Shown here: one piece after another, positions 37,309 through 60,075 of the stretch
Layout: every line of letters begins with the position of its first letter
Numbering within the stretch: position 1 is the stretch's first letter
From: Quercus robur
Taxonomy: Eukaryota > Streptophyta > Magnoliopsida > Fagales > Fagaceae
Assembly (NCBI RefSeq): GCF_932294415.1
Contig: NC_065542.1
Span: forward strand, 2,497,501-2,561,500
Length of the DNA stretch: 64,000 nt
Direction: 5' to 3'
Translations under genes and position numbers: made by a program
Notes under the pieces: model-generated
What the model was told of the DNA's origin: nothing
The model's input: the letters and a program-made list of their open reading frames with translations, nothing else
Database searches by the model: none

Positions 37309-37400
37309 GGAGAAAATGGGCAAATACCCTTTTTCTCGAAATTAAACATTCGTTTGCCCTCTTTCTGAAACTAAATAGGGAATTGCCCCTCTTTTGTAAC
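37309..37400 (+). mobile_element. Left terminus of a Mutator-like element
   Basis: At 37,309 the flank repeat, which elsewhere continues CCACTATTATAATT, is replaced by GGAGAAAATGGGCAAATACC and a TGCCCTCTTTCTGAAACTAA segment. The latter is a degenerate tandem of two TTTGCCC-type units, typical of Mutator-like terminal inverted repeats. The expected partner end and a nine-base duplication of TGTTACCAC were not found to the right. Element identity is inferred from the transposase gene at 50.5 kb. Confidence 0.5.
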
Positions 37401-37540
37401 TCGACAATATAGAAATCGAGTTTTAATGAATAACTCGATATTATTATAGTCGAGTTAGTCTGACCTTTCGAATTTTCCCGAATAAAAAAATGTTTGTGTA
37501 GACGGCCATAACTCGGGAAACTGGAAATCGAGTTATGTTC
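37397..37540. repeat. CGAGTTA dyad cluster upstream of the PMD gene
   Basis: Three inverted pairs: GTAACTCGAC/ATCGAGTT, ATAACTCGAT/GTCGAGTTA and ATAACTCG/ATCGAGTTAT, each with a spacer of about 7-15 bases. A CT-rich probable transcribed leader starts about 30 bases downstream. Confidence 0.8.
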
Positions 37541-38180
37541 AGCGGTTTGAATCAATAGGACCCTAACGTCTCACAACGCTATTCAGTCACTCACTCTCTC
37601 TGTACACTCTCTTTCCCTCGCTCTCTGCCATCACTCTCTCTCCACACTCTGTCTCTCTCGCTCTGCGATCAGGCTTCCCCACTCTTCCTCGAGTCTCCAT
37701 CAGTCGTCGTTGGTTCCCGCCGCCGCTGATTACAGGTACGGTCCTCTCCCTCTGAAATATTTTCTGACGTTGGTTAATGTTAGGTTGCGTTTTGTGTGGG
37801 ATTTTGATTATTTTGTTGAAACTTAAGGAAGTAGTAAATTTACTAATGAAGATGAGAATTTTGTTGTCTTTTATATGCTGCAATGATGATTTTCTCATTA
37901 ATGAGTTTAAATGTGCTTGGGGTTTTGATGAGGGGTTTTGGCAAATCGAGTGGTGTTATAACTTATATTTTCAGAAATAGTTAATTAATAATTATCCGAA
38001 GCTTTAAGAAGTGATTTAAATAGTTCTGAAATAATTTTTTTTATGGCAAGTTCTTATTTATTTAAGAAGTGATGTTGAAAATCTTGTGCTCAAAATATAA
38101 TGTCTTACTGAATCTATGCTTTTATTTTATATTAAATGTGGTTTACTTGTTAGAAAATTGCTAACAATGTATTTGCTGCC

Positions 38181-41100
38181 ATGTCAGATATGCAGGCACT
38201 AGATAGAGTGCGGCCTGGACCCGATGTGGATACCCAGTTGGCCCAGCAGCCGAATCATCGGTCAAGTCCACTTTGGAGGTGCGCCGCTGACGAGGTATGT
38301 AGTAGTATTATTAATACATGTTTGTTTTATAATTACCTCGTGTTTAATCTCCTAACAGAATACTCGTCCGTGTGCAGGAGGCGCCTGGCATGATAAAGGT
38401 TCGACGCCGTAAATGTGTATTGCCACAGGGTGGGTTAGATCCACGTATCATGCAACACATAGATGCAGCAGGGTTGACTGGTTTATTCAAGGTTCCTGAT
38501 ATGGAGGTCGACCACGCCTTGATCACGGCGTTGGTTGAGCGGTGGCGTCCGGAGACGCACACGTTCCACTTACCCCATGGAGAAATGGGTATCACCTTGC
38601 AAGATATGGAGGTGATGCTGGGGCTTCCGGTGGATGGGTTGCCTGTCACTGGGAAGACAGACTACAAATGGAGTGAGCTGTGCGAACAGTTGTTGGGCCA
38701 TAAACCTCCACCCCCGATACCAAACTCAAACAAGTCTACCCTTGCTGGGGCGAGGATAAGATACACCTGGCTTGATGCACAGTTTGCCGCTCCCTTAGTT
38801 GTGGACGCTGCTGACGAAGTCGTGCAGCAATATGCCCGCTACCACCTACTTGTACGGATGGGGGCCCTCTTGTTCATGGACAGGTCTGCGGACCGGGTCT
38901 CACTGCTGCCTCTGCAGTTGCTCAACCCAGTCAGCAATGCGAGACGGTATAGCTGGGGTAGTGCAGCATTGGCCTGGCTGTATAGGCAACTTTGTGGTGC
39001 ATCGAAGAAGGATGCGATGCAGATTGGAGGAGCACTCTTGTTGGTGCAGCTATGGGCCTATTCAAGGTTCCCACAATTATGCCCTGTTGTGAGGCCGCCT
39101 CTACCGCCAGTGCACTCAGGGCCCCTTGCCATTAGGTACGTTCATTGAGTTCTCGTTATTTGTCTCTTTCATATAATTAAAAGTATGCCAAACTAACAAA
39201 CGAAAGAAACTTATCAATGCTTAGTATATGGATGTGAAATATAAAAGCAAAGTTTGTTAAATGTAAGGTTCAGTAATGAGCATTTGTCGACATCTCATGT
39301 TTGGTAGGTGGAGCGGGCCAAAATGCACCGCAGAGCATGCCACACACGTCCTTGCTGCGTACCGGGCGTCACTGGCTACAGTACGGGCCGAGCAGGTATT
39401 CGGTTAATTTAGTTTGAATTCTTATGACCACGTTTCCCTCAATTCTTATAACTACGGGCCGAGCACGTTTTCCTCAAATGCACCGCACATGCTTTTATTT
39501 TCGTTTCCCTCAATTTTATATTATTTTGAATTCTTGGATTGTTGTAGGAATGAGTTGATTTCATAATACCATCCAATCATTTTGTTTGGTACTTGGATTT
39601 CCATCCCATCATTTAACTCAATTGGAATGTCCATCGTGAAGTACTTCACATTAGAACTTCCATTTGTAGCACCTGCATGAATACTTGCTCGTCCTTACAT
39701 AAAGTAAAACAAAAGTAAAAAATTCTTGAATGTTAAATCAAAGGGTTTTTTCCAAATTGGGTTGGATTGAAGGGTTTTTTCCAATGCAACCCAACTAACA
39801 TGACTCAGGTTAAGTTGGGTTAAATCAATGGGTTATATATAAATTTAGTCATATATATATAAAGTAGAATTTGGCTATATTCTTCATTATGTACGGAAAC
39901 GTTTGTGATTTACACGGAAAAAAAAAAAAAAAACACAGAATAAATTGTCCCTTTTCCAAGATGTTTGAAGCATGTGCAACATGCGCAAAACATTGAGCAT
40001 GAAGTCTTCGTTTAGTGCAAGGCAGTGAGTTCAAACTTGTGTTGCAACCAAAAAACAAAAACTCCACCAATTGTTACAAATGTCATTAAGCTGATGCAAT
40101 GAAGAGAAGACGCACATATTGGATTATGTAATTGGTTATAATTCAATGAGAAATGAATTTACCTAATAGTATACCAAAGATGATCAGATTTGTCTTTGGT
40201 TGTATTTGTGTGCTCAAGTAATTCATTTGATTTTAATGATGCATCTTCGAAACTGACGATGACATCTTTAAATTCTTTCCAGCTACTAACTGAATCAAAA
40301 GTTTGTGTTCATTTTCTGATTATGTTATTATACACCGTTTCAACCTACTTAACATGAGAAAATAGAACTTTTAGCCTGCTATGAAAATGAACTAAAAAAT
40401 TTCAAAACAATATTTCTTAAGACTTTATATAAGGCGAATGATTGTAAACGCAGAACCAGCATGGTCAATTAAATTCTAAACAACAAATTTCTAACTATAA
40501 ACTTGACAAATATGGGTCTTTTCAGAACAAGGGAATCAAGGCATATTAGAATACAAATGATATTTTCAAAACGCATGGCCCCTGCGCAAGGATGACACGC
40601 ATAAATCGAGAAATGGTCCAAATTTTTTTCTTTCCCTAATCCTTGTGTGAATTCTGCTTCACTGTCTTCTTCGTTGTTTTTGCACTTTCTGCTTCTTTAC
40701 ATGCGTTTTGGAGTCTTGCTCAACAGGTTAGCCCAGACTTGTGCTCATAATTCTTTTAGAGAGAGTTTGAATCTTTGATAGTTGTTATACTTCAATATTA
40801 AAGCTTTAAAATAGAAATTTTTTTTAGAACTGTTGAAGCTTATTAATATTTCACACCTTCTGGATTCGCTATAGTTTTGGTGGTTGACTTAGATATTACC
40901 ACAATTATATTCCAGATTTTCGTTGAATTAAATTTGCTGAGTTAGAGCTGCTCTTCACTGTTGTAATATAGTTGGCTGTTAAATCTCATAAAATGATAAA
41001 ATTCTTTAAATTTAGAACGTTGGGAAAGCTGCAAATGTTAAACTACGAAAATTTTATCTAATTATTGTGTAATCATGACATGAGAGCAAAAATATAACCC

Positions 41101-44100
41101 AAGTTTGCATTTTTGGCCTAAGTACAGAAACAGAGGGAATGATGACATTATTGATCATTGGCCCGTAAAACACATGATCACTTCTCTGGCTTTCATTGAA
41201 ATTTGAAATTAAGCAAACTAAAGGATGGAGTTACTCTGACTTGAATGTCATAGAGTGACCATAGGCTAAGCCATTGCCATAGCTTGTCCTTGTCCAATGC
41301 TGGATGGTTGTCATTGCTTGGGTCCACACTGTGAAATTTCCAAAATACAAAGCCATTAGTGCCCTCCCAGTAGGAACTCGAGAGTCCAGGGTATAGGTTA
41401 AACCCTTTGTGAGATTTGGGGTTGTTTAGGATGCCAGAGTGAGCACCGAAGATAGTCTCAATTGTTGCTTTGCCTTCAAAAACTTACTAATGTTTGGAGT
41501 TTATGCATTTCACTACCCCTGTGACAGAACATAGCAATATTTAGTATTAAGTGACCATCTAAGGTTAATATAAACTTTTATGTTATCTAAACATCTGTTT
41601 GGGATGTTCTAGTTGATGGTGTTTTCATAGGTAGTCAATGTGAATCACTTGTAATTAATTAATAAAATGTTATGAGCTTAAAACCATAGTTATTGCTCTG
41701 CCTAATAAGTAGACAATTTAGTATTTCTTCTTCTAACATAGGGGTATCCAGGATTACAAAAATTGTTATTGTGATGCAAAAAACATTGTTACATTGTACG
41801 TTATAAATTACCTTTGCTGAATTGAAGGTTATATTTTTACAGTCTAGTAGAATACTGTTTGACTTCGATTTACGTATTCAAGTGGTATATTTTGAATATG
41901 CACAGCCTCGATTGTCTTCTTGGAAAACAATGGCCTAAGTTTAAAGAAACAAATAATTGTTAATCAGTGATATATGAGAAAACATAAAGACGCTTGACAC
42001 ATTACCTCTTGTTGTTGACCTAAATGAAAAGTTAGTTCGTGCTCCTTGCACCAAAGTTGGAGAGCACAATTTAATTGCAGCATGCAACTCCTTAAGTTGT
42101 CCCCACTTTAGCTGCCTTAATAGTCCTAAAATTATTAAAAGCTATGGATTATTAACGAGTACTTTATTCATATAATTTTAGAAGCGTGCAAAATATGCTG
42201 ATCACCATATTCTTCAAGAGGAATGTAATTTTAGACATTGACATGATTAGTTTGAGATAACTAAAAGGCTTACGTAATTTCCAACACTAAAATTTATAAG
42301 AAATATATATTTACATAGAAATATAATAACAGTATTTGATGAGGATTATACCATGTAATAATTTACATAGCTTCCATTTCTTGCAATATAAAGTGGTACT
42401 TGAAATGCAATGTCTTCAGTAGACCTTATAATAGTCATTTTGTTCTCATTCATTGAAACATTGTTAATGACTAATGCAATTAATGTAGCACAATATTTCT
42501 ATTACGATAAAAAGATTTTGCGAAATCATCAACTTGGATTCATCTTACAGCCATAAGGATGCTGTAGTACCCTCCTCTAAGTTTGGTTCAGATTGAAAAC
42601 CCTAGTATTTGATGGTGTCAGTTAGCTTTGAACCCTGTCCAGCATATGAACATGGGGCTGAAAATGGTGGACATGAACAACCTAGATCTTTTAATATTTT
42701 TTGCAGGTCAATTTTGTTGTTCTTTTAGTTTCTGCCCAATAATCCCTGAAGATTTTGTGTACGACTAGAAGCTAGAAATTCCATGCTTTGCATATTACAT
42801 ATCACCTACATAATGTTAAATTAGTATGATGTCTCACTATCACAAACATAATCTACTTATGCAGATTGTATGGGAGCCGTACACGCATACGCTAGGCTCC
42901 CTACCTGCGTATTGCACTGCTGGGCAGCATATTTGGAGGGCCGAGGTGCCGTTGATATTCTTTTGGATAGTGGAGTGGCATCATCCTGAGCGAGTCCTCC
43001 GTCAGTTTGGGATGAAGCAACCAGTTCCAAGTGTCGTGGATACGTCGACTACCCTTCACAAGATATCCCTTCAGGGTAAATGGGAGAAGAACTGGGAGGT
43101 AGAACATGATCCCTTTATTCGGCAATGGGCCAACCGAGTGAATGTAGTTCGCGGGTCCGATCTCCTAGACGATGATGATACGTATCTCGTTGAGTACATG
43201 ATGTGGTACAATCGCCACACAAGGCGGTACATAACACCAGAGTCTGCGTATTGGGAACTCATGGTGAGGCAACAATTCCTATTTTATGGATGAAACCATT
43301 GTTGGATTAAATATCCTCAGCAGATTTATCATGCATATTTTGAAGTCCACAATAGTTATTGTTGTTACATCTCTATAAGTTTCTCTGTCATGTTGTTTTA
43401 AAGTGAAAAAATACTGCATGACATGTCATTATGTTTTAAAGTCAAAATACTGCATGATTTAAGTTGTTCATAACAAACTGAATTTGTCTTGATCCAATTT
43501 GTTTGCATGAGGAATGGTTAATGGGCAATGACTAATGATGACCACACCTTTGTTCATATAATTACATTCAACTTTTAAAAAGGGTAGGTTGGGTTGGGTT
43601 TTATTGTATTTTATTTTAATTTTTTTTAATTTTTTTTTGTTTTTGGTTGGCTTGTACTTTAAAATGGACGGTGCAACTCTGTGTAGTAGTGATAAATTCG
43701 CATTTCATGATAGTTTAGATAGCCTTTCCTCCAGGACTGATTAATGTATTACATATTCCTTGATAGATATTACCTCTAGGATTGGGAAGTCCCTTACTAA
43801 ACTGTTGGTAGAATGCAATTCCCAACAGCTTAAAGGTCATTTAAAATCTTGCAAGTATGCAGCAAGGAGATGTGCATTTATACTAGATTCAAGTATGATA
43901 TATGTTCTAAGTTTTTGGTACTTCCCTTAATTGAAACTTGAAGCTTGCGTTTGATATTTTCAATTCATTTGATTTGGGCGTGTACGTTAGGAAATAATAA
44001 CTTCAAAATATGTGTCCTGATTGCAATGTGATATTAATGGAGTTGTAAATCTCGTGAAGCCTAGATACAGAAGTGAAATTCTGATATTTTCACTTATGCT

Positions 44101-45246
44101 AAGATTGAACTTATGTACAACCAACTATACGTGTTTTTTAGAAGTATTATCTCAATGTTTAGATTGCGTAGCGATAAACATAACAGGAAACATACAACCT
44201 CTTGAGTGTTGGGTTGGAACTATAAATTCTTGCACAGGGGGGGCCAACCCCTATTTTTATACACTGTCTTTTTAAAGATGCTTCATAATTATAAGTAATA
44301 TAAGGATTTCATTAGCTATGTTTGCTACTTTTTCTTTTGATTTTGGAACAGATTTATCCAAGTTTTGCATCATACTTGCGTTCTTGCTTTTATGACGCCC
44401 TTGTTTTGTAGGTTCGGACGATGATTAGGTCTATACCGAGGTGCGATGAAGGTTCTGACATGCACACTGACCTTACATTTACACTAGAGCTTGTGGAGGA
44501 GCTAGGCCGACTTAAATTGGCGAATGCGCTTGCAGAAGCAGTTGACATTGATAGACAGGCCCCAGTTCGTGGCGGGCAACGTGGTGGGTCTCGTGGGGGT
44601 GGACATCGTGGAGGTGGTCAAGCTGGTCGCAGCCGTACGACCGAGTCGGCTCCCATCTACGAGGAAGGGAATGAGGAGGGTGTAGAAGAGGCATGGCTTG
44701 GCACTGATTGGGTACTGTCTGATGACGACGGCAGGACACCGCGATGCACGCCTGGCGATGGTGCTGGGCCATCCCATAGCGTCGATCATCAGGGCACTGT
44801 TCCAGCCCACACTACATCCCATGGTGCTAGCACGGACTTTGAGGGCCCTCCTCGTATGTCGCCCCCAGTTTTCAGTGGATCTGCCCATGATGGTGGATGC
44901 ATATTTGTCCCCACACCAGGCATGCCCACCCCACCTCTAGTGCAAGTGGACCCCACCATGTCAGCTCCATCTCAAACCGCCCACGGAGAGGCTGTACAGA
45001 TTGAGCAGATACCGGCTGAGGACATTGAGCCGGTGGAGGCTTTGCGGAGATCGCGACGCCCGCGTGCGCATGCTCCCGATTGCGGGACCGGTGATGGTAT
45101 GTACTTCGTCTACACTTCCCATCTTCTTGAGCTACTTGTACTGTGCATTTGATTGATTATGTTAATTTAATTATGCTGTTGTGTCTGATGAAACAGGTAA
45201 GATTAGACCTGTCAGGGCATATGGGCGGAAACGAAAAGATCATTAA
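38181..45246 (+). CDS. Plant mobile domain (PMD) protein, MAIN/MAIL-like
   Basis: Six exons keep one frame: 38,181-38,294, 38,378-39,135, 39,308-39,395, 42,865-43,263, 44,412-45,096 and 45,197-45,246, 697 residues. Residues about 40-460 form the PMD (PF10536, called aminotransferase-like), including [20 protein letters not shown], the characteristic [20 protein letters not shown] and [17 protein letters not shown]. The C-terminal third is a Gly/Arg-rich stretch ([17 protein letters not shown]), an acidic and Pro/Ser-rich linker and a basic end (YGRKRKDH) suited to nuclear import. PMD proteins are found both as host genes that act in gene silencing (MAIN, MAIL1 in Arabidopsis) and inside Mutator and Gypsy transposons. 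The setting here argues for the transposon type. No frame defect is seen. The start could also be the in-frame ATG at 38,190. Confidence 0.85.
40573..40629 (+). ncRNA. U6 spliceosomal snRNA, 3' fragment
   Basis: GCATGGCCCCTGCGCAAGGA followed by TGACACGCATAAATCGAGAA and ATGGTCCAAATTTTTTT reproduces the 3' half of plant U6 snRNA with a single difference (CATAAATC for CACAAATC). The 5' half, including the ACAGAGA box, is absent, and the upstream bases are unrelated. No U6 promoter boxes are seen. A truncated pseudogene within the PMD intron. Confidence 0.85.
41224..41480 (-). pseudogene. Unidentified protein-like fragment
   Basis: On the minus strand about 85 codons stay open with protein-like composition, including [47 protein letters not shown] and [17 protein letters not shown]. 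It has no ATG at its start and no clear end. The Trp/Tyr/Gly richness and lack of stops in an AT-rich intron suggest a captured exon of a host gene. I cannot assign a family. Confidence 0.35.
43264..44411. other. PMD intron 4
   Basis: Donor ATG|GTGAGG, acceptor TTTGTAG|GTTCGG. Nothing recognisable inside. Confidence 0.55.
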
Positions 45247-46542
45247 ATGCCTTAGTGTATGCTTATACTTCCTGCCTATAGGTGACTGCATAGTTACGTT
45301 TCACTTTTCTTCTAAAGTCGTATTTTTTTTTTTAGACCTAACTGCAATGGTGGACACGAAAAGGCCATTGAGCTGGATTGTCCTTGTGTGCTTATTCTTC
45401 ATGTGTATAGGTGACTGGAATAAGCATGCAAAATGTTCTACTAATTGGGGAGAATCTTGGTGGCTGTGCATCTATTTCTGGATCATTGCTTGGGGAGAAT
45501 ACTGGCTGTCAATGTGTTTGTTGTCAAGAAATTGATATTTTGGAGAAAACCCATAAGGCGTATTGTATTTATTGATGTATTAGGAAGTTTTTCTGCACTT
45601 GGAGTTTTGATTGCAATTTGACAAATGTCTGGATTGGTATTCATTTGAAGCCAAACTTTCTTGTGTTTTTGTATGTTGTTAGCTACAGTAAAGTGGGTTG
45701 TAAGAGAGTAATTTGTTTTTTTATTTTTGTTAGTTTTGTGAGAAACAAATGTGTGGTATTGTTGATAAGCAAGAAGAAGTAATTTGATACTTTCTGTAAA
45801 AGAGTTTGATGACGAAGTTTATGCGGATCAATGGCAGAACCAACTCCTTTGTAGCAAATCATTTATCCGAGTCTCTACAATGCTTGGCTAGGTATGTGTC
45901 TCTCTCCTAATTTTCTGATTCGCCTTCCCTACAATTCCTAGATTGGTACATCCTCCTTCCCATTTTATTAATTTTAATCTCCTTTAAATCCCCTCCTCTC
46001 TAGAATGATTAGATCTGTGTACATTTGATTACAAGTTCGTTAGTAGGAAGTTTGGAGAATAGAATTTATATTTTTTTCTAGCATTGTTCTAGAGCAGCTC
46101 ACAATATAACTTACCTAAAGCTGAAAACGGCAAAAATCTTAGTTATGTGTGCATGTTTTGTTCCTTTTGCTTCTTGGGGTTTGTAATTGTTATTTATCAT
46201 TGTATATATTACCTTTTCATTTTGGTAGCAAATTGGGAACCCAATGAGAAACATTTAATTGATTATTGATTTTTTCATCAATTAGCCTTCTTATTTTATG
46301 ATTTTCAGTATATATATATATATATGTTGTGTGTGTCATTGGCCAATGAATCAAATCTTGTCCATCATTTGCTTTAATGAAATGATGGAGGCATTAATGA
46401 AAAATTTGCATACTGTTTGAATGTTACTTTTATTGTTTGTGTATTGCCGTTTTTTGGGTTTGAATTATTATCTATGCTTACAAAGGTATATGCATTTTTC
46501 TCAATAATTTTCGGTTAGTATCTAATGTCTCCTTCACCACAG
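45247..46542. other. PMD 3' region, no further gene seen
   Basis: Includes likely 3' untranslated sequence; open stretches such as 45,143-45,535 are Trp/Cys-rich by composition and show no domain. A short TA run lies at 46,311-46,326. Confidence 0.45.
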
Positions 46543-46871
46543 CACATTAAGACGTTGGAGAAGTGGCCAACCTTCAGAATCCTGGGAGGCTCATAAGGCA
46601 GCAATCCAAGCACTCATAAAGCTGCCTTCAGGCGAGCTTGTTACAGGTATAATATGATTAAGTAGATGACTGTTCTGCTAGATATTGTTTTAGATTTTGT
46701 TGGTAGTTGGAATTGGTTACATCAGATTGGAATGCATTATCAACTACGAATGTCTTTCACTATGAACTTATGGGGTTCATTTTTATGCTACCACGATTTT
46801 AGGTTCAAGTGATACAACTTTAAAACTTTGGAGAGGAAGCAAATGTACACATACTTTTGTTGGGCATACAG
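46543..46871 (+). pseudogene. Captured WD40 fragment of a PLAA-type gene, intron kept
   Basis: Two exon pieces, 46,543-46,646 and 46,803-46,871, are separated by a GT-AG intron and join in frame. They read TLRRWRSGQPSESWEAHKAA, IQALIKLPSGELVTG and SSDTTLKLWRGSKCTHTFVG. This matches two WD40 blades of plant phospholipase A2-activating protein (PLAA/DOA1/Ufd3 family, ubiquitin-Cdc48 adaptors). No other part of that gene is present. A preserved intron means DNA-level capture, as in Pack-MULEs, not retroposition. Confidence 0.75.
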
Positions 46872-46900
46872 GTATTTTTTCCATTTATTTGCCTTCATTG

Positions 46901-46904
<4 letters not shown>

Positions 46905-46960
<56 letters not shown>
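46905..46960. repeat. (TA)n microsatellite
   Basis: An uninterrupted TA run of about 54 bases immediately after the PLAA fragment. Confidence 0.9.
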
Positions 46961-47473
46961 TTATCTGCAATGTGTTGAAATCATGTGGGAATGAAAATAA
47001 TTGTAGATTTTGCAAACTAACGATGCTGTAAAATTTTCTTCTTACATGTCTGTTTGGTGATCATCAAACATATTTTCTTTGAGCTTCCTATAAGTTAGAA
47101 GTGGAAGAAGCATTTAATAAGACTTCTGATGTATAAGTTGGCATTAATTGACCAAACTGTTGACATGGGTAATCCTCATATGTTTAGTGCTTTACATGGT
47201 TTGATTGCTAAAAAATTTAGACATGATGATACTGAGTTTGTCTCTTGTGGAGTATTTAGTGGGAAAGGAATGCTTGCACTTTTGACGGAAGTGCAAGCAT
47301 TCTTGATTTGAAGTTCTTCCGGACTTTATCTAAGCGGACTAATGCTTTGGCATTCATTACCAATCTGACTGGTTTTCTATTTATCTTCACATGATTGAGA
47401 GTTGTGTTATTTGCTTCAAACTTGGCTTTATAATATGGCTTTATATATCATTGATAAAACAGATCAAATATAG

Positions 47474-47630
47474 GCTGATGCACTTGTTCTGAGGGGGATC
47501 AGTTGCACATTTGAGGAAGGGCACAAAATACGTATTGTTGGCAGAATTGGCAGTGGCAAGACCACTCTCATAGAGATGAACCTGTTTTGTCCAGTGGAGC
47601 TAGCTAGAGGGACCATTGTAATGTATCTAT
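47474..47630 (+). pseudogene. Captured ABCC-transporter nucleotide-binding fragment
   Basis: After a likely acceptor (ATATAG at 47,468-47,473) the frame reads [20 protein letters not shown], then the Walker A sequence [12 protein letters not shown], then a degraded LFRLVEP-like part ([14 protein letters not shown]). This is the second nucleotide-binding domain start of a plant ABCC (MRP) transporter. About 50 codons remain. Like the PLAA piece nearby, it begins at an exon border, so it is probably captured DNA. The stretch at 47,107-47,340 is open for 60 codons but unassigned. Confidence 0.7.
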
Positions 47631-47639
47631 TGAAACCTG

Positions 47640-48451
47640 TAGTATTCCATGTAATGTTCACGAGATTACGTAACTTTTAAATTTTAAGTGTTCATTTTTT
47701 TTCTAATTCAGAATAATACTACAAGGTACATCATAATTTTAGGGTTTTATTTACTGTGTTTGGGATTCAAGAACCTTTATATAGCTGTGTTATTTGTTTT
47801 TTTAGTTGGTTGGTGTCAATTTTTATTCATGGTCATTTTGTTCTGGACTTTCTATATTGTGGCTATTAAAATTTTCAGAATTGACTTGAAGAATTTAGAT
47901 AATTTTCTAATGTTGGACGATTTATCATGTATGAATAATTCCAATCCTAGCTTTTTTAAACTTTGAATTTTCTTTGATTGGTATGGATTGCAGTGAATCC
48001 TCCAACGAGGAGGATTTCCAAATCGTTCATGTAGAGGTTATGCAATTCATTGTTGTTTTTTACGTCATGTACATTCGTTAATCGTGGCTCATTGTGTATA
48101 GGCTGATGTAGTATTTTGTAAGTACACAATAATGGACTGCAGTGAATCAAATAGACGGGGTACGACCAAAGGTGACTGAATAGGATCAAATAGAGTAAAT
48201 AGAATGTAGTACACCGATTTTCCTAGAAACCACAGTGGACCGAATAAGACCAAAGTAGATATAATGGACCGAATAAGACCAAAGTAGTCCAAAAACAAAA
48301 ATAATAAGGTTATTTTTCCATATATACATATCTGCCAGTGAAACAATTGGAAAACGATGACACTTCTACTTAAAGCACACATGACAACAGATGGTACTTG
48401 GAAGTATACATATCTTACTAAATACCACAACAAGAAGTCGTACTTTTGCAT
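47640..48451. other. Spacer, small tandem repeat
   Basis: No gene. GGACCGAATAAGACCAAAGT occurs at 48,236 and 48,267 within a purine-rich segment (48,150-48,290) that looks like a MITE end. Confidence 0.45.
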
Positions 48452-48889: not shown

Positions 48890-48984
48890 CCTGCTCTACA
48901 CAAACGCAATGGTGGGAACTCTTTGCACTAGAATAACATGGCTGCACCTTCTAACGTGTGAAGTGAGCTTTTGTAGTGGAAATG

Positions 48985-49165: not shown

Positions 49166-49189
49166 CCCCTCCCCACATTTCAGAATCCA

Positions 49190-49712: not shown

Positions 49713-49746
<34 letters not shown>

Positions 49747-50360
49747 TGTATAGGTATGTTTACATATAATGTATGTGCTTAGGGCACCAATTTTTTGAAA
49801 CATTTTTGTTAGGAATTGCAAAAACTGTTAGTGCATTGAAAATCCTGCAAAAAATTGTCCAAGAAACGATTAATTATTGTGTGCTCTTATGACTTATGTG
49901 AGAATAATCTTATATGTGTGTATGTGTGTGTGATAGTGATATTGTATACATATTGTTCCTAAATATGTCGAGTTTTATATAGTAATGTATATAATACTTT
50001 TTTTTGAGAACTCTTTTGGGAAATATGTATATAATCATTCTAAATAAACATATATATAAACAAACATTGTACGGTGAATTCATATGATGACATATGCATT
50101 CATTCGTAACTACACACTAATGATGTGTAATGTATACTGAGGTTTAAATTGTATGGCTCTTTCAGTTCTGAAAGTCTTTGCTGTGTGGGTTCTGAAAAAG
50201 AAAGCCTGCGAGGTGAACAAGTTTTGCTGACCATGTTTGCATTTTCCTACTCCATATTGCATCCTTACCAAGCGAGTTTACAAACACCCTAATTCTTTGT
50301 TGTGGCACGTCTCCCCTAAAAGGCCAATGTTTGTGTTCAAACGAATCAAGTGTGTACACC
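49190..50360 (+). repeat. Duplicated 5' leader of the transposase gene
   Basis: 49,200-49,375 and 50,160-50,330 are diverged copies (shared: TCTGAAAAAGAAAGCCT, GAGGTGAACAA, TTGCATCCT.ACCA, TTCTTTGTT.TGGCAC). The intervening sequence is mostly TA/CA/TG microsatellite. The transposase leader probably contains an intron ending at TATCCAG (50,461-50,467). Either copy could serve as the first exon. Confidence 0.6.
49480..49760. repeat. TA/CA/TG microsatellite tract
   Basis: Interleaved runs of TA, CA and ATGT repeats. They create long frames of Tyr/Ile/His/Val on both strands which are not genes. Confidence 0.9.
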
Positions 50361-50474
50361 TATAATTAGGATAGCATCATAGTGCATCTGTAAAAGAGTA
50401 ATTACTATTGCATTAACATAACCCCCTATCTTCTGCATGATAACCACAATTAATTGTCCTTATCCAGGTCTGCC

Positions 50475-53099
50475 ATGGGTCGTCACTGCTTCTACGTTTA
50501 CTATGATGGGGAACAGTATTTCCATGACTTGCATGGGCTGTCCTATAAAGGCGAGTCTGTGAAGCAGAAGTTCATTGAGTTGAAATGGGGAACACACTTG
50601 AGAAAAATGCACCGGAAGATAATGGAAGCTCTACGGTTGGACAAGGAGTCACATAAGATATCCATTGTGTACCGTGCCCCCCAGATACTTGTGAGTACTC
50701 AGGTTGTCTACAACTCAAATCCGTTGGGTTGCGATGCTGACGTGGACATGATGTGGGCAGTGATTAAGCGGACCCCCCAGTTCATAGCGTCTGACTTGTA
50801 TGTAACTATTGAGGCTGTTGGGTTCCATGGTAGTGCAAGTTCACAGCATGCCAGTGGGGTGGAAGAGCCACACTCATTGTCGGTTGACGTGCATCCTCCC
50901 TTTGCCTATGCCACGCCTTTCCCCTACAATAATCAACCATGTGCAATAGATCATTTGGACAACACCGAAGTGGTGGGCGCCACCAATACACATGATGTGG
51001 GAGGGTCTACTCACACATATGAGCATGTCCAAGCTGATATGGACGGGGGAATTGATATTGATGCCAGCCGAGATGTGTATGAAGAGTTCATTGATACAGA
51101 TGGACCAGTGGACGACGCGGAGGTCTTAGATGTACCACTGATTGAAAATAACGAGGAAGATTGCCTTACAACAGTTCCTATCCCAGAATGGTTCACATCA
51201 AACACATGGGACAATATTAATGACCCATCACCTGCATTGGGTACAGGACATCTTACAAGTTGGCATAAAGATGACCACCCAGCAAGGGGGATGCTATTCA
51301 AGAATAAAGCCTCTGTTCAATATGTGTTGACCCTCTACTCTGTGGAGCATAACAAGCAATACAAGGTCATCAAGTCTGACACCAATAGGCTGGTAGTGCG
51401 GTGTAAGAATGAGGCATGTCTGTGGTCAATTCGGGCCAATTGCAGCAAGAAGCACGGGATGTGGGTTATCAGTACATGTAAGGGTCCCCATAGTTGCTCA
51501 TCCCTCCAGCTACCAACTGATGGGCGGATGATGGATTCAAAGTTCATCTCCATTGCACTTGAGAAGTATGTACGGGAAGACCTAACCCGAAAGGTAAGGG
51601 ACTTGCGTAGTATGTTGCATGCAAGGCATGGGCATGATGTAACTATGTACAAGGTTTGGGAAGCCAAACAGAAGGCAGTTGCACGTATTTACGGGGATTT
51701 TGACGAGTCGTACGCAGAATTGCCACGATTTCTAGCTGCATTGTCTGATGCAGATCCGGATACTGTGACCACACTAAAGTGTGACCCCAATGTCCCGGGG
51801 ACTTGTATATTCAACTCCGCGTTTTGGGCTTTCGGTCCGTGTATTAGAGGGTTTAGGCATTGCAGGCCGGTGATAAGCATAGATGCAACGCACCTTTATG
51901 GCAAGTACAAAGGAAAGCTGTTGATAGCAATGGCAACAGATGGTAACAACGAGGTTTATCCACTCGCATTTGCCGTTGTCGAAAGCGAGAGCACGGAGAC
52001 ATGGGGATGGTTCTTGGCATGCCTGTTGACCTATGTTACAGACCGCACCAATTTGTGTATAATATCCGACAGGCATCGTGGGATACAATCATGCTTCGAT
52101 GACACCACTAGGGGCTACTTGCAACCGCCCTTAACCCATCACCGGTATTGCCTCCGCCATTTAGTAAGCAATGTTAACACTAACTTCAATAGTGTGGCCT
52201 TGAAGAACTTGGTATGGAACGCAGCAACTGCGAATCAAGTTAGGAAGTTTGAGAACACCATGGATTGCATCAAGAATGTCAACCCGGCTGCGTACGACTA
52301 TCTTAAGGAGGTAAATCAAGAAAAGTGGACACTTGTACACGACCATGGGCACCGATATGGGGCAATGACAACCAACCTGTCAGAGTGCTTCAATGGGGTA
52401 CTTAAGGGCGCACGTAGCTTGCCCATAACTGCAATGGTGAAGTTTACATTTTACAAGGTGAACTCATACTTTGACGAACGTCGAAACAAAACCCTAGAGA
52501 AGTTGGAAGAGGGGCAAGTGTGGTGCAAATATGCCTATGACAAGTTCGAGGAAAATCAAGAGAAGGCGAAGCTCCATATTGTTAGAAGGATGAGTGCGCA
52601 ACAACGGTTATATACAGTGGAGACACAGTCTTCACTGTTGAACACTGGCGGGGGAGATCACACCCATAGGGTTTCCCTCATAGACATGACATGCACGTGC
52701 GGCAAATGGGAAGCAAACAAGATCCCTTGTTCCCACTTGATAGCAGTTTGTGCCAAACACAACCATGATGCCACTGAGTATATGGATCATTTCTACCGCC
52801 TTGAAGAACGCTATCACAGCTATGAGCCTATATTCCAACCACTAAAAGATAGGTTAGAATGGCCGGAGCCAGCAGAAAGGAGAACCGTAATGCCAAACCA
52901 GCGGTTGATCCGTGAAAAAGGTCGGCCCAAGTCCACGAGAATCCGCAATGAGATGGATGACGAGGATAGGGAGTTGCCAACCTCATTGTGGATTGAGAAT
53001 GGACCAAAGTTGAAGTGTGGGTTGTGTCGCCAAGAGGGTCATAACCGTCGTACATGTCCAACTCGAAATGTGGCTTCAACAAGCCATGGTGCTATGTAG
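50475..53099 (+). CDS. mudrA-like: MURA-type Mutator-like transposase
   Basis: One uninterrupted exon of 874 residues from the ATG in GCCATGGG. Residues about 268-340 form the Mutator DNA-binding/WRKY-GCM1-type zinc region (RGMLFKNKASVQYVLTLYS ... CLWSIRANCSKKHG). The MULE catalytic domain (PF10551) has D470 in SIDATHLYGKYKGK and D532 in IISDRHRGI; I did not assign the catalytic glutamate with certainty. A SWIM zinc finger follows (C740, C742, C752, H754) and a CCHC knuckle ends the protein (C848, C851, H856, C861). It cuts element ends to move Mutator-like DNA. Length and domain order are normal, with no stop or frameshift, so it may be active. An upstream in-frame stretch from 50,454 begins with TTG across the probable splice acceptor and is not the start. 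Confidence 0.92.
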   Translation: MGRHCFYVYYDGEQYFHDLHGLSYKGESVKQKFIELKWGTHLRKMHRKIMEALRLDKESHKISIVYRAPQILVSTQVVYNSNPLGCDADVDMMWAVIKRTPQFIASDLYVTIEAVGFHGSASSQHASGVEEPHSLSVDVHPPFAYATPFPYNNQPCAIDHLDNTEVVGATNTHDVGGSTHTYEHVQADMDGGIDIDASRDVYEEFIDTDGPVDDAEVLDVPLIENNEEDCLTTVPIPEWFTSNTWDNINDPSPALGTGHLTSWHKDDHPARGMLFKNKASVQYVLTLYSVEHNKQYKVIKSDTNRLVVRCKNEACLWSIRANCSKKHGMWVISTCKGPHSCSSLQLPTDGRMMDSKFISIALEKYVREDLTRKVRDLRSMLHARHGHDVTMYKVWEAKQKAVARIYGDFDESYAELPRFLAALSDADPDTVTTLKCDPNVPGTCIFNSAFWAFGPCIRGFRHCRPVISIDATHLYGKYKGKLLIAMATDGNNEVYPLAFAVVESESTETWGWFLACLLTYVTDRTNLCIISDRHRGIQSCFDDTTRGYLQPPLTHHRYCLRHLVSNVNTNFNSVALKNLVWNAATANQVRKFENTMDCIKNVNPAAYDYLKEVNQEKWTLVHDHGHRYGAMTTNLSECFNGVLKGARSLPITAMVKFTFYKVNSYFDERRNKTLEKLEEGQVWCKYAYDKFEENQEKAKLHIVRRMSAQQRLYTVETQSSLLNTGGGDHTHRVSLIDMTCTCGKWEANKIPCSHLIAVCAKHNHDATEYMDHFYRLEERYHSYEPIFQPLKDRLEWPEPAERRTVMPNQRLIREKGRPKSTRIRNEMDDEDRELPTSLWIENGPKLKCGLCRQEGHNRRTCPTRNVASTSHGAM

Positions 53100-53848
53100 C
53101 AGGTAAGAATTACAAATCTTAGTAACAAGGGGGTATCATAAGTTATTCTTCTTTACATGTTTAGATATTACATTATATGAGTTATAATTAAGATGTGGGC
53201 AGTAATTTGTAGTATTCTTTCAATCTTATTGTTTGTGGTGTACATATTCTAGTATTCATGAGGTCTCTATTTCCCTAACTGTATATGTTTTGCTGCAGAT
53301 TTGTATTCAATCCGCAAGGTGTAACTGTAGATGCTCCTCATTTAAGCAGGCAAGCTTGAATGCTCTTCTATATTTGTCAATTCAATTTATTGATTACCAT
53401 GGGTTGTATACTAATTTCTGTGTTGGCTACTCCTCAGAAAGGAGGCAACTTCTGAAAAGAACAAAAAGAAGGTGTCACTCAAATGCTATGACTCCATGTT
53501 TGCCTAAAACCATTGTTGGCGGATGCTGTCCAAGTTTCAACTTACAATTGCTATGACTGTTTAAAATGCAGAAATGGAACTTTTTATTTTTGTACATCAA
53601 CTGATTAAAGCTTTAGAGGCTCTTTACTTACAAATAAGCTTGTATATATGGATGATTTTTTCATTCGCGTAATGCAAATGGGGGAATGTTACTGATGGAT
53701 GTGGTTGGTTATGATTTGTATGGATGACTTGTTGTTCACAGCATGGTTGTCAGCAGGTCCACTTTAACCATGAATAAGCACGTTACTGAATGCGTGTGAA
53801 CAGTGCAAGTAGCAAGCAAAACTACAAGTAGAAAGGTTATACTAAATG
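53100..53848. other. Transposase 3' region
   Basis: Includes a possible 3' intron (CAG|GTAAGAATT directly after the stop, acceptor near 53,299). No further gene seen. Confidence 0.45.
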
Positions 53849-55365
53849 AAACTCGATTTTCTAGATAACAAGTTACGTTGCAGTCCATTTTCAACCCCCT
53901 ACGACTGTATCCACTCTCAATTGTCAAGTATCTGAGTTACTCGATTTCTAGATATCCGAGTTACCTTCAACATACCTCGATTTATAGGGTACCGAGTTAC
54001 GTTGGAGATTCCTCTTAGACTGTATCTGGACCAGTCCAAATATCTGGGCTGGTGTAGGAAGCCCAGTCAACTTAACTCGATTTCATCTTTACCGAGTTAT
54101 GTTGAGAGTAACTCGATATATATAGAATCGAGATACGTTGAAGACCGTTGTCTCCACTTAGATTCCTCTTGGACTGCCTCTGGCACCAGTCCAAATATCT
54201 GGGCTGGAAGCCCAGTGAACTTAACTCGATTTCATCCTTACCGAGTTATGTCGAGAGTAACTCGATATATATAGAATCGAGATACGTTGAAGACCGTTGT
54301 CTCCACTTAGATTCCTCTTGGACTGCCTCTGGACCAGTCCAACTATCTGGGCTGGCTCAGGAAGCCCAGTCAACTTAACTCGATTTCGTCGTAACCGAGT
54401 TATGTTGAGAGTAACTCGATCTATATAGCATCGAGATACGTTGAAGGCCGTTGTCTCCACTTAGATTCCTCTTGGACTGCCTCTGGACCAGTCCAACTAT
54501 CTGGGCTGGCTCAGGAAGCCCAGTCAACTTAACTCGATTTCGTCGTAACCGAGTTATGTTGAGAGTAACTCGATCTATATAGCATCGAGATACGTTGAAG
54601 GCCGTTGTCTCCACTTAGATTCCTCTTGGACTGCCTCTGGACCAGTCCAACTATCTGGGCTGGCTCAGGAAGCCCAGTCAACGTAACTCGATTTAGTGGT
54701 TACCGAGTTCTGTTGAGAGGAACTCGATATATTTAGAATCGAGATACGTTGAAGACCGTTGTCTACAATTGTTGCCGAGTTATTCCCAATTTCCCATGTA
54801 ACTTAACTCGATTTCTTTATAAGCGAGTTAGTCCCATATAACTCGATTTCTTGGATATCGAGTAATTCTACTTTAACCTGATGTTCAGGATATCGAGTTA
54901 CTTCAAATGGAGAGTAACTCGATCTATATAGCATCGAGATACGTTGAAGGCCGTTGTCTCCACTTAGATTCCTCTTGGACTGCCTCTGGACCAGTCCAAC
55001 TATCTGGGCTGGCTCAGGAAGCCCAGTCAACGTAACTCGATTTAGTGGTTACCGAGTTCTGTTGAGAGGAACTCGATATATTTAGAATCGAGATACGTTG
55101 AAGACCGTTGTCTACAATTGTTGCCGAGTTATTCCCAATTTCCCATGTAACTTAACTCGATTTCTTTATAAGCGAGTTAGTCCCATATAACTCGATTTCT
55201 TGGATATCGAGTAATTCTACTTTAACCTGATGTTCAGGATATCGAGTTACTTCAAATGGACTTCCAAACCACCACACACAACATGGATTCCTCTGAGATA
55301 CACTGCGCACAGCATGGACTCCTTTTAGTCCCAGTACACATAACTCGATTTCTAAATAGTCGGGT
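53849..55365. repeat. CGAGTTA dyad cluster and 154-base tandem array upstream of the B3 gene
   Basis: Single dyads at 53,849-54,000 lead into tandem units. The phrase GCCCAGTCAACTTAACTCG begins at 54,061, 54,210, 54,364, 54,518 and 54,672 (spacing 149, then 154). The stretch 54,672-55,020 is then repeated as 55,021-55,259 and appears identical. Each unit contains four successive inverted pairs: TTGGACTG/CAGTCCAA, CTGGGCT/AGCCCAG, TAACTCGAT/CCGAGTTA, and GTAACTCGAT/ATCGAGATAC. The array stops about 95 bases before the B3 start codon. Minus-strand open frames of 75-80 codons across it are repeat shadows. Confidence 0.9.
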
Positions 55366-55457
55366 TATGTGTATGACCAACCCACTATTTAGTGCTCAAA
55401 CGTACGAAGCAGCAACTGTTCAACTTCTTCTCAGCGAAAGTTTGGAGAACCAGAACA

Positions 55458-57312
55458 ATGGCTTCTCAATGGCGGAGAGACAACGACGATGGTCCTGCTG
55501 ATCGGTCCCCACACTTTTTCAAGATTATTCTGCAGAATGCTGTTCAGGAAGGAAAGCTTGTAAGTATGCTCAAATTTATAAATTCTATCATTGTCTGAAA
55601 ATCATATGCTAATACACTTCGAACACTTCATCTTCTTTATTTGTGATTGTTGAAATATGTACATTTGTTACATGTAGTCAGAAAAACTTTCATTTTGCAA
55701 TACGTAGGTTACACTTTAAGAAGAACACAGTCACATAACAGAGTACTTTTGCATCGTACAAGTAGATATGAACAAAAAATGGAACAGGGATATAAGCGCA
55801 TGGTAGAGATTGAGGAAAAATATGAAGGAAATTCACAGTTTAATATATATTCTTTTGCAGTGGACCTGTCAAATGTACAACATTTCCCCAAAATTTTTTA
55901 CATTTCAACAACAACAGAGAAATGTAAAAGTGTAGAGGTTGATGGTTATTTTGGTTATAAGATTAGGTTGTATAAATTGGTTTCAAAATTCATAAGAGTT
56001 GTTACTGTTATAGCTATTAAATATAACGTCAATGTTGCAGGATTACATTTTATTTTGTTTGATTTTCTTTTCTTTTTTGTGTGGGGGTGGGGGGCTGTAA
56101 CTAAGAAGTATAAGAGGGTCATTCAAACTTTTATTTTCTAGCATTGTGTATAAGGATTGATTGCATGTGTTTATTTCCCTAGCCTGCATTTATGTTATGG
56201 AGATTCTTTTTACAGCGGATTCCAGATAAGTTCGTGCAGAAATTTGGAGTGGACCTGTCAGATATGGCCTTTCTCACTATTCCAAATGGTAGAAAATGGA
56301 AAGTCAAGTTGGCACAACATGCTGGGGGGGTTTGGTTTCAAAATGGTTGGTCCGAATTTGCAAGCTCTCATGGTGTAGCCGTGGGGCACTTGCTGGTTTT
56401 CAAATATGAAGGAAATTCACAGTTTCATGTACTCATATTTGATGCCACTGCAACAGAAATAGACTATACTTTAGACGACGAACAACATGTACATCATAGG
56501 ATCGAAGATGATGAGAGTGATGACAGCTCTGTTGAAATCATCAAACACTTTTATAGGGGAGAGGGTTCAGGTTTGAATGTTACACTTTTGTAAGCAACTG
56601 CTTGATTTGTTTAGCTTCTGCTCTATTAATTTTATGTGCATGACTTCGTATTTTCAACTTCTTTCAGGATCAGCCCATCCTAAGAAAGACGGTGGTGTAG
56701 CTAAAAATCTTGTTATAGCCAATGCTTTTAAATCAGAAAATCCCCTTTTCACTGTTACCATGCGTCCATCCTACATTAATGGCAAGGATCGTGCGGTAAG
56801 CTTTTAGCTTCAGTAAAATGGAATATTTTTGTAATTTAGAAATGCAACTCCCATTAACTGTCATTTTTCATAGATCAATTAGAAAGATTGTCACACTAGA
56901 TACTTGTGGCTGGACATTTTGTTGGTAATGATTTGTTCTTATTTGTGTTTTTAGGTGAAAAGATGTAGATCAATTAGATACTTGTTGCTGGAATATATTT
57001 GTTAAATATCTATTATTGTTCCTTGTACAGAGTTTACCCCAACACATTATCAACTACTTACCAAGAGACGGGTTTACCAAGGACTACACCAAAGCAAGTA
57101 TACTCCCTGTCAAGCTCCAGATTGTGGACCGATTATGGCCTGTGAAGCTATACATTTATGAACGAAGTGGGGGTTCATCATGTGTCGTATCAGCTGGTTG
57201 GTCTGCGTTTGTGAGGGAAAATAGTTTGCAAGTAGGAGATGTTTGCGTATTTGAGCTGATTATGAGGGACGGTGTTGTGTTAAACGTCCACATTTTCAAG
57301 TGCCAAGACTAA
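55458..57312 (+). CDS. REM-type transcription factor with two B3 domains
   Basis: Four exons, 55,458-55,559, 56,216-56,570, 56,668-56,795 and 57,031-57,312, all GT-AG and in frame, give 288 residues. The first B3 domain runs from SPHFFKIILQNAVQEGKL across intron 1 to RIPDKFVQKFGVDLSD, WKVKLAQHAGGVWFQNGW and GHLLVFKYEGNSQFHVLIF. An acidic linker follows (HRIEDDESDDSSVEII). The second B3 domain spans FTVTMRPSYINGKDR, SLPQHIINYLPRDGF, VKLYIYERSGGSSCVVSAGW and GDVCVFELI. Two-B3 proteins of this kind (VRN1/REM group) bind DNA, often with little sequence preference, and act in the nucleus. It is intact. Its promoter holds the dyad array shared with the transposon genes, so it may be part of the element or a host gene flanked by it. 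Confidence 0.85.
55800..55890 (+). repeat. Shuffled exon 2 pieces inside B3 intron 1
   Basis: AAATATGAAGGAAATTCACA (about 55,817) and AGTGGACCTGTCAAATGT (about 55,859) closely match exon 2 phrases at about 56,402 and 56,249, but in reversed order and joined by TTTTGCAG. This is a rearranged partial duplicate, not a usable exon. Confidence 0.65.
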
Positions 57313-57849
57313 GTGGTTAGGGTGGATGCAAAGTGATGATAATATTATGTGATGTTTAGAGTGTGTTTACTTTGCAACTTTACTATTCATCCCTATTTTG
57401 TTCATCCCAGTTTGCAAGTTTATTGATTGGGTACTTTTGTGATGTTTAGAGTTTCACTCTTGGGAAATTTTTAATTACTATGATGAACTTTCATATGTAT
57501 TTTAAAATGAATGTGATGCTGTATTTTTTTCTACGGTTTTGTTTGGATTTTGGCCTTTTTTGCATGGCGACTCTTGGATTTTATTTTAGGGGGGTCAACA
57601 TTGTTATTGCTATAGGATTTTGTTCTTTTCAGATGACATTGTTGTATGTTTTGTATATATTGTAACACTTTAATACAATAACACCATGTGCAATAATTTG
57701 TAGTCATTATTATAGATGTTTGCAAATTTAGATGTTTATAAAATAAGTGAGAAGTTAATCCATCAATTGTGTCAATCAATATAATGTGGCAACTTGAAAA
57801 GCTTGAAAGCTAAATTTTCAAAATTTCACTTGGTAGCAATTTTTCAAAT

Positions 57850-58671
57850 GTTATAGATGAAGTTGGAGGAACGTTACTTCAGTTACAACTCCTGGAGTAA
57901 CGCCCTCATTAATGCTGCCCTCAGCCACGCAGCTGGATTGGGCTTCAGTGTCTGCAATTATTGAGGATTTAGTGCTGCCAAAGTCCACGCCAATTAGCAA
58001 TAAGTCCAACTCAATTAATACACCTTCTATTTCGGTGGAGGTATTACAGGAGGATACGTTTTTGGCAAATATAAATAATAATGAAGAGTTATTATTGGCA
58101 AGAATTGTTACACCCAATTTGGAGTCTACCAGCCAGCTAGCATGTACAATTGGAGTTAATCCAATTAATGCCTTGAAAAAATATTCCAAGGGAAATCAAT
58201 TTCAAGTGGCGGCAATAGTGGTAATTCGGGATAATAATGGAGTTGTGATGGCTTCTTGTTCAGAAAAAATTCATCAAGCTTACAAGCCTGATGAGGTTGA
58301 GGCGCTGGCTGCTCTGAAGGCAGTGACATTTGCGCGTGAGTTGGGTTTTCAAAGAGCTACTCTCGAAGGAGATTCTCTCGGTCAGATTAAAGGTTTGAAG
58401 TCAACAGAGTGTAGCCTATCTCCAATAGGTCTACTGGTAGATGATGTGAAAAGGGTTGCTAATAGTTTTGAACGATTGTTGTATTCTCATGTTAAGAGAA
58501 ACGACAATAGGGTTGCTCATAGTCTGCCGAAAAATGCATTACGCATATCAGATTTTCAAGTATGGATAGAAGATGTCTCATCGCATATTGTTTCGATTTT
58601 AGATTTGGATGTAATTGTTTCAAGTTAATAAAATAAGTCAGCTTCTTTCTCAAAAAAAAAAAAAAAAAAAC
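57850..58671 (+). mobile_element. LINE-type retrotransposon remnant with RNase H domain and poly-A
   Basis: An open frame of 238 codons (57,912-58,628) ends in an RVT_3-type RNase H region: FQVAAIVVIRDNNGVVMASC, EVEALAALKAVTFARELGF, ATLEGDSLG, and VKRNDNRVAHSLPKNALRIS. The acidic residues of RNase H are partly visible (E in VEALAAL, D in EGDS, D in NDNRVAH), while the first is replaced (VVIRDN). Upstream residues (MLPSATQLDWASVS...) resemble no RT. A TTTCTC poly-A tract at 58,652-58,670 marks the 3' end. It is a 5'-truncated or internally deleted LINE. I could not define a target duplication, so the left edge is approximate. Confidence 0.65.
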
Positions 58672-59459
58672 TTGATGAATCGTTGCTCAAAGAAAAATAT
58701 CATTGTTTCCTGAAAAATCTTTGCTAATATACAAATGAATAACACAAAATACTGGTGAAATATGTACCAATACGCTATTTGCAGCCAAATTTTCCACGGC
58801 TCCTTTGCCAGCTAAAAAACCACGAACAAGAGGACTGTATGGAACTATTCCAATGCCAAGCTCCCTGCATGTACAAAAACATTAAAATTCGAGAGACCAT
58901 ACTCATGCTTCTGGATAAGATAATTAAATTATATTGAAATCAAATCTACACAAAATGGATGATATTTTTTTTTTTTTTTTGTTGCAGTAGTCCTTCAAAA
59001 GAACAGTAGTGTTGCAAACGCAAGGATGAATATAAGGGGAAAATAAAAAAGGAGAGAGATTTAGGATACACGGAAGCATTCAAAACACCAAAATTTATAG
59101 AAAAACATCATCTTTGAACTAAACAAACCTGCAAACAACATCTGTCAAACTCCTATCATAACTGCTGCCATTAACTGCTTATGAAAGTGGGTCATCCACA
59201 CGGTAGAAATGCAAGTAATTCTATCATTGTCATAAGGAATCATGAGTCTGGATTATTTCTAAATCCATTTTCTTGCTGAAATTTTCATAAAAAGTGTGAA
59301 ACTTACATTTTATTGAGAATCATACCACTAAAAAATAAGTAAATAAAAAATATTTAATAAAAAGGCTCCGCATGATTTTTGGAACATGTATTAGAAGACT
59401 ACTTGTTATTGTCAATTAATGTTGACAAATGATTACACCTAACAGGAAGATTAAGGGAG
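58672..59459. other. Intergenic, no gene seen
   Basis: AT-rich, a T run at 58,968-58,981; small open frames without features. Confidence 0.45.
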
Positions 59460-60075
59460 ACCAGTGAAAATAACTCAAGTTCTACAAAATTGAGTAACTC
59501 TGCAAATAACTCGCTTTATGATGTCGCCATTTATATGCAAGCCATTACACACAGAAATTGCATTCTTGAGATATTCTACTGCAAATAACAGAGTACTATG
59601 TTATTTGTTCGGTTTTGTGCGAGGTAGCCATATACAGTTGGATTCCTCTTGGACTGCATCTGGACCAGTCCAAATATATGGGCTGGGTGGGTGCATGTGT
59701 ACAATGTAACTCGATTTTCCAAATCTCGAGGAATTTGATTTCTTGTGAGTGTCCACTGCACAGAACTCGATTCAAGTAGAATCGAGTATTGTCGCAGGCC
59801 TACCTTTAAACTTCGATTCGTCTTGGACCGCATCTGGACCAGTCCAAATACCTGGGGGCCCATAAAAATAACTCGAGTTCTTTATAATCGAGTTATTTGA
59901 AATTAACTCGTTTTCTGTAACATCGAGTTATGAGAAAGCCGTTCCACCATTAACTGGATTCTTGTTATTTGTGCTACACATAACTCGATTTACGGACAGT
60001 CGGTTTATGTGCAAGCCCTTGTGCTGAAAATTTGATTGCATTTAACTCGATTATAGTAATATCGAGTTATATGGA
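59460..60075. repeat. CGAGTTA dyad cluster upstream of the 60.9-kb gene
   Basis: Degenerate inverted pairs occur at 59,470-59,515, 59,707-59,790, 59,868-59,930 and 60,042-60,072 (ending TTAACTCGATT/TATCGAGTTAT). Between them are two copies of the spacer hairpin seen in the B3 array (GATTCCTCTTGGACTGCATC at 59,640 and a variant at 59,815, each followed by GGACCAGTCCAA). The probable leader of the next gene begins within 50 bases. Confidence 0.85.

Follow-up and report, generated by a model that had tools for sequence, protein, structure and literature searches.

A fixed-spacing dyad at the ends and most gene promoters of a 32-kb Mutator-like element in oak

Maize MuDR (Mutator) encodes a MULE transposase, carries in its TIRs both a transposase-binding site and promoters, and makes a target duplication of the 9-bp class. 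In the VANDAL elements, as described in the accessible parts of the two reports, the targets of VANC proteins are tandem repeats of varying number between copies (PMC5735166), the VANDAL21 motif being YAGTATTAY and the VANC6 motifs AGTTGTCC/AC, and the TIRs are degenerate (PMC5735166, PMC10398659). In En/Spm, according to the portion of the paper available, the element-encoded DNA-binding protein TNPA binds subterminal repeats and acts on them in transposition as well as regulation (PMC2613891). Here we describe a large Mutator-like element of Quercus robur in which one dyad of fixed geometry occurs at both ends and at most gene promoters.

The window, that is, the whole 64,000-nucleotide stretch of DNA analysed, contains from 37 kb onwards a single Mutator-like element of 32,320 bp, running from 37309 to 69628 and so past the window's right edge (Table 1). 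Two paralogs of the flank at 36283-37308, both within the window, run on past the point at which this copy stops, so that 37309 should be the element end. In the sequence downstream of the window the right TIR ends at 69628 and is followed by TTGTTACCAC, the same 10 bp as precede 37309. The homology of eight other copies to the right end has its limit at exactly 69628 in six, at 69630 in one and at 69626 in one (81% identity). The first-pass annotation had drawn the block at 37-62 kb, limits that are too narrow, as the element includes a fifth dyad cluster at its right end (69284-69540). A TIR-plus-TSD search confined to the window found nothing because the right end lies outside it. Placement in the MULE superfamily follows from the TIRs, with dyads next to them in register, from the domains of the transposase, and from target duplications within the 9-10-bp class: an exact 10 bp in the window copy and in two further copies read at both ends (CTCATTAACA and AATAATATAT), at C2:95087435-95118995 (10 kb of the middle left out) and C3:2446183-2477766. 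Two more copies on C2 are 99.6% (at 35.19 Mb, 14.5 kb read) and 99.9% (at 89.50 Mb, 15.1 kb read) identical to the window element. Outside the element, the left half of the window holds genes that, named by eye, we take to be TIR-type NLR resistance-like genes (12179-14823 and 24584-33041). Three paralogous intergenic copies lie between the NLR genes of this half (16571-18542, 34900-36250 and 36200-37308), and the two that are without the element provide empty-site comparisons.

The gene order in the block is PMD, host-gene fragments, HBD (on the minus strand), MULE transposase, B3 and T32. The transposase contains PF10551 (E 1.5e-19), PF03108 (E 1.3e-10) and SWIM, and is 95% identical to Quercus lobata LOC115949803; the B3 protein is 100% identical to a Q. 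robur protein, and T32 is 99% identical to cluster P0121 (64 members). The host-gene fragments lie at 45802-47620 and 58787-58870. They include ABC transporter C pieces identified by protein P0090 (named ABCC10), whose alignments at 45802-45888 and 47483-47575 fall in the stretch from PMD to the transposase; a fragment in 45802-47620 is, we assume, of WD40 identity, and an aldo-keto reductase piece is presumably represented as well. The RNase H-like ORF, terminating in poly(A) and lacking dyads, looks like a nested fragment of a retroelement. Beyond the window, a second B3 gene lies on the minus strand near 66.2-66.9 kb. Near the right TIR (68318-68797 in window coordinates, minus strand) is an open reading frame of some 150 aa for which no Pfam family exceeds its cut-off; it is possibly a further gene that would be driven from the right TIR dyads. 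A U6 snRNA match (RF00026, 50 bits) falls within a PMD intron at window positions 40517-40627. The structure model of T32, at a pLDDT of 39, is useless.

That these neighbours travel together is indicated by fused, collinear gene models: 11 of 240 proteins (nine from Q. suber, two from Lithocarpus) match at least two regions of the block with their parts in window order, for example PMD-ABCC fragment-transposase (P0090) and transposase-B3-T32 (P0016, P0091). No translated dyad was found in fused gene models among 360 proteins. No relative emerged from viral contigs, scanned for the dyad and searched with the transposase, or from bacterial and archaeal genomes, searched with T32; 39 matches to the TIR pattern in viral contigs were taken as chance.

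Table 1. Positions of the element, its genes and its dyad clusters in the window (coordinates of the 64-kb stretch).
Feature	Position	Strand	Remarks
Target-site duplication TTGTTACCAC, left copy	37299..37308	.	10 bp; right copy 69629-69638
Mutator-like element, part in window	37309..64000	.	continues to 69628
Left TIR, outer 88 bp (GGAGAAAATGGGCAAATACCC...)	37309..37396	+	88.6% identity over 88 bp to reverse complement of right end
Dyad cluster 1	37397..37535	+	3 dyads; TIR/subterminal and PMD promoter; right end in same register
PMD gene	38190..45152	+	several exons; PF10536 in two exons, E 1.3e-51 and 1.4e-19; partial gene model
Host-gene fragments	45802..47620	+	ABC transporter C and presumed WD40 pieces
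HBD gene (RNase H1 N-terminal / caulimovirus viroplasmin domain)	48452..48895	-	PF01693, E 2.7e-15
Dyad cluster 2	48991..49158	.	4 dyads; divergent HBD/transposase promoter; 4 at same place in C3 copy
MULE transposase	50481..53099	+	open 872-aa frame; DBD_Tnp_Mut, MULE, SWIM
Dyad cluster 3	53849..55367	+	23 dyads in 154-bp and 349-bp tandem repeats upstream of B3 gene
B3 gene	55458..57312	+	4 exons, 288 aa, two B3 domains
RNase H-like ORF	57861..58628	+	poly(A) run at end
Dyad cluster 4	59471..60069	+	7 dyads, 5' of T32 gene
T32 gene, 'putative plant transposon protein'	60866..61999	+	PF20167 ('Transposase_32'), 377 aa

The dyad, TAACTCGAT-N9-ATCGAGTTA, was scanned for by pairing TAACTCGAT with its own reverse complement at spacers of 0 to 30 and accepting at least 14 of 18 letters. 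Over all spacers 65 half-site pairs passed, and 37 of these have a spacer of 9; a spacer of 8 gave a single pair (at 23303, in the left half of the window) and a spacer of 10 none, while ten Markov controls held 0-2 gap-9 pairs apiece. The 37 dyads form four clusters between 37.4 and 60.1 kb, just where the first-pass annotation had placed them, and its observation that the left half is free of clusters stands, no gap-9 pair having been found in positions 1-37396 by the same scan. The window contains 28 exact matches to TAACTCGAT, every one of them within 37431-60069; 100 shuffles averaged 0.33. Alignment of 30 distinct dyad rows with their flanks reveals a near-invariant core, AACTCGA, and a variable spacer, and adjacent dyads are often 34-36 bp apart. 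Each of four upstream intervals contains one cluster, for which P is about 5e-4 under uniform placement, with intervals chosen after the clusters had been seen. Clusters 3 and 4 have about 300 bp in common at 67% identity. Two of the 349-bp tandem units, at 54561-55260, are 100% identical, suggesting a very recent duplication or an assembly effect.

In the oak genome (786 Mb) there are 360 perfect dyads, and the reversed-pattern control gave 0. Fifty of the 360 were examined, being the first in contig order rather than a random sample, and all 50 fall within or next to element-family sequence: 41 are at most 400 bp inside a TIR end, most commonly 88 bp from the outer end, and the remaining nine adjoin the 5' regions of T32 (close copies contribute four and a divergent copy one; one more is at L072 beside a T32 coding match, and three at L054 beside sequence like a T32 5' region, where the 10 kb read holds no T32 coding match). 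The dyad is a regular part of the element's TIR, at positions 89-115. Even where a TIR end has no perfect dyad at the expected place (27 of 44), the best pair has a spacer of 9 in 25 of the 27, and conservation is 0.958 in the half-sites, 0.835 in the outer TIR and 0.771 in the spacer, these ends being partly from close copies and hence incompletely independent. Two listed TIR ends (L067 at 1820; L070, off the edge) were omitted from the conservation and duplication counts. The examined loci also include 13 short TIR-TIR elements of 289-504 bp, with target duplications that are exact over 8-11 bp in nine, have one mismatch in three and are lacking in one (end shifts of up to 4 bp allowed). These 13 fit the description of MITEs, 12 of them with a duplication of at most one mismatch; the window element, at 32.3 kb, does not. 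Since the dyad is commonest in the TIR, in long and short non-autonomous copies alike, the first expectation is a site for end recognition or a TIR promoter.

Could the dyads then serve transposition only, the internal clusters being functionless relics of nested TIR-TIR derivatives? The 13 short elements, nine of them with exact duplications, show that such derivatives occur, yet the left outer TIR sequence has no match at the internal clusters, and dyads recur without it in the HBD/transposase, B3 and T32 promoters. Furthermore, the clusters are kept in the second copy at 96-99% identity and beside the T32 5' regions of diverged copies, and the half-sites outlast the spacers. We regard this explanation as improbable. 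The same evidence qualifies the idea, raised with the first-pass annotation as what would count against it, that the dyad is a dispersed MITE unrelated to promoters: many copies do lie in MITE-like elements, but those at internal promoters have no outer TIR around them.

The variation between relatives limits how far the association with genes can be taken. The copy on C3 has the same genes in the same order, with the T32 match split over two frames, and contains 35 dyads to the 44 of the window copy (gap 9, at least 14 of 18); before the B3 gene the numbers are 15 and 23, respectively. The second B3 gene has two upstream dyads in the window copy (16 and 14 of 18) and none at the corresponding position of the C3 copy. 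A divergent relative at C2:30860001-30890000 (PMD 57-63%, transposase 62-77%, T32 58% identical) has dyads at its T32 promoter and a right-hand cluster at the expected end position, while within that interval its own TIRs were not matched, dyads before PMD or transposase were not found, no B3 match lies between transposase and T32 (another B3 match is present) and there is no HBD match. Some of the T32 5' regions that adjoin perfect dyads are likewise diverged. These two cases, the divergent relative and the second B3 gene, mean that a dyad at every gene, as the first-pass annotation had it, is no rule of the family; in the window most genes have dyads, but the RNase H-like ORF has none of its own.

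The position of the clusters directly 5' of genes might also be explained by a host transcription factor acting on the dyads, with the TIRs as promoters and the internal genes carrying the same host site. Clusters 3 and 4 hold another inverted motif with a 9-bp spacer, TTGGACTG-N9-CAGTCCAA, and cluster 3 in addition CTGGGCT-N9-AGCCCAG (spans 54006-55012 and 59641-59860 in the window), which would agree with promoter function of this kind; the latter motif resembles, we presume, the TGGGCY site II of plant promoters. However, the restriction of the examined perfect dyads to element-family sequence is unexpected for a common host site, and no dyad occurs in the NLR-bearing left 37 kb, so that we consider a host-factor promoter unlikely.

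The pattern of substitution bears on what may be recognised. Among the five tandem units of cluster 3, 2 of 36 half-site columns vary, as against 8 of the 18 spacer columns and 14 of the 101 others; the difference between half-sites and spacers is significant (P 0.0012), that between half-sites and the other columns of the units is not (P 0.24). The two halves of the dyad show no covariation beyond shuffling, and in 28 distinct dyads one-sided breaks of a pair number 41 and compensated changes 2, a pattern more in keeping with half-sites recognised as double-stranded DNA than with a hairpin. Although all five dyad stretches folded as RNA do so better than shuffles (z -3.1 to -4.7), as would be expected if the dyads acted as RNA or DNA hairpins, the clusters sit upstream of the likely transcripts, and together with the missing compensation this leaves us giving the hairpin explanation hardly any credence.

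CpG dinucleotides in the half-sites are largely retained. Distinct one-mismatch half-sites have CpG transitions in 0 of 24 cases inside the clusters (of 32 before repeats were removed) and in 3 of 5 outside them, and among the 37 dyads 34 retain the CpG in the left half and 35 in the right; one dyad with several mismatches, at 59471, has undergone the transition in both halves. Beyond the half-sites, clusters 3 (0.47) and 4 (0.53) are depleted of CpG, as is the left 37 kb (0.42); the depletion is milder in cluster 2 (0.78) and absent from cluster 1 (1.4). This retention would be consistent with a VANC-like system, in which a B3, PMD or HBD protein of the element would bind the arrays of dyads and either clear the element of DNA methylation or keep it from being methylated, and so would the non-coding tandem arrays that differ in number between the two copies, as VANC targets do in the accessible text of PMC5735166 and PMC10398659. 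B3 genes of this kind group in a clade of Fagaceae, and some are fused to the transposase in gene models (in a tree of 39 rows hand-picked among the matches listed, where the Fagaceae label wrongly took in Quillaja). On the other hand, selection on a binding site could also explain the retained CpG, and the dyad is rigid and commonest in the TIR, whereas the VANC motifs reported, in the portions of those papers available, are short, repeated and non-coding; the divergent relative, moreover, has T32 dyads and shows no B3 match between transposase and T32, though there is one elsewhere in it. As the explanation of the dyads, such anti-silencing seems rather unlikely, but it is conceivable as an extension of the reading preferred below. 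The VANDAL-like arrangement proposed in the first-pass annotation is borne out in that this is a Mutator-like element with a fixed-geometry motif at most promoters and a B3 array of variable number, but not in its emphasis, the dyad being primarily a TIR site.

The reading we prefer, on which we are evenly divided, is that a protein encoded by the element recognises the dyad, both at the two ends and at the internal promoters, and would thereby be a single regulator of the ends and most genes. This protein may dimerise on the dyad, or may carry two DNA-binding domains, each for one half-site. At the TIRs its binding would help to define the ends for transposition and would also drive the terminal genes inward, and at internal sites the same protein would coordinate transcription; binding may in addition keep the CpG of each half-site unmethylated. 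A wider and more tentative version, which we think possible but would not expect, is a transposon-wide regulon, in which the end-marking site spread to most internal promoters, a self-encoded protein recognises the ends, switches genes on and prevents methylation, and the array of dyads in front of the B3 gene grows and contracts from copy to copy as the element evades host silencing.

As the reader of the dyad, the transposase is our first candidate because short derivatives retain the dyad in their TIRs, and the B3 proteins are the second. In the structure model of the B3 protein two folded B3 domains, matched by solved B3 structures, are joined by a low-confidence linker; the model carries no information on sequence preference. 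Two domains so joined make the B3 protein a possible reader, and in the accessible part of PMC10690724 B3 proteins of the ARF family are described as forming dimers on inverted repeats with set spacing. A host factor could read the sites equally well.

A single motif of fixed geometry connects the ends of a 32-kb element with most of its promoters and with its short non-autonomous relatives; where read, copies of the element reach 99.9% identity. How large, multi-gene transposons stay expressed despite host silencing is a question that extends beyond the VANDALs of Arabidopsis, and the short relatives carry dyads to other places in the oak genome. Both the dyad reader and any anti-silencing effect are directly testable with a 27-bp probe. 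The literature searched, as far as its text was accessible, does not describe this dyad, or a MULE with PMD, HBD, B3 and PF20167 together.

Compared with known systems, the oak element resembles MuDR in its MULE transposase, its TIRs and the class of its target duplication, and differs in its 32-kb length and at least five genes; we know of no TIR motif that recurs at internal promoters of MuDR. Plant MULEs with a PMD gene likewise combine it with a MULE transposase, but the available text of that report lists PMD, DUF and unknown ORFs rather than B3, HBD and PF20167 together, and mentions no shared motif (PMC6446971). A promoter motif tied to PMD proteins is also described for MAIN/MAIL1 (PMC7156037, PMC9899485, in the parts accessible); this 'DOWN' motif, CATGCAGTTT in the MORC1 promoter, is found at host genes and differs in sequence from the oak dyad (PMC9899485). 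The likeness to VANDAL elements and VANC, on the accessible sections of those papers, lies in a Mutator-like element with several genes and a short motif within tandem repeats of non-coding sequence, with turnover from one copy to the next, as in the B3 arrays of the two oak copies. The oak dyad is another sequence, however, the TIRs are clear instead of degenerate or absent, and no VANC was identified in the oak element, judging by Pfam families alone (PMD, HBD, MULE, B3, PF20167). Finally, En/Spm (CACTA) with TNPA shares, in the part of the paper available, the clustering of short motifs near the ends (PMC2613891), but belongs to another superfamily, and the oak dyads occur also far inside the element, at the promoters of its genes.
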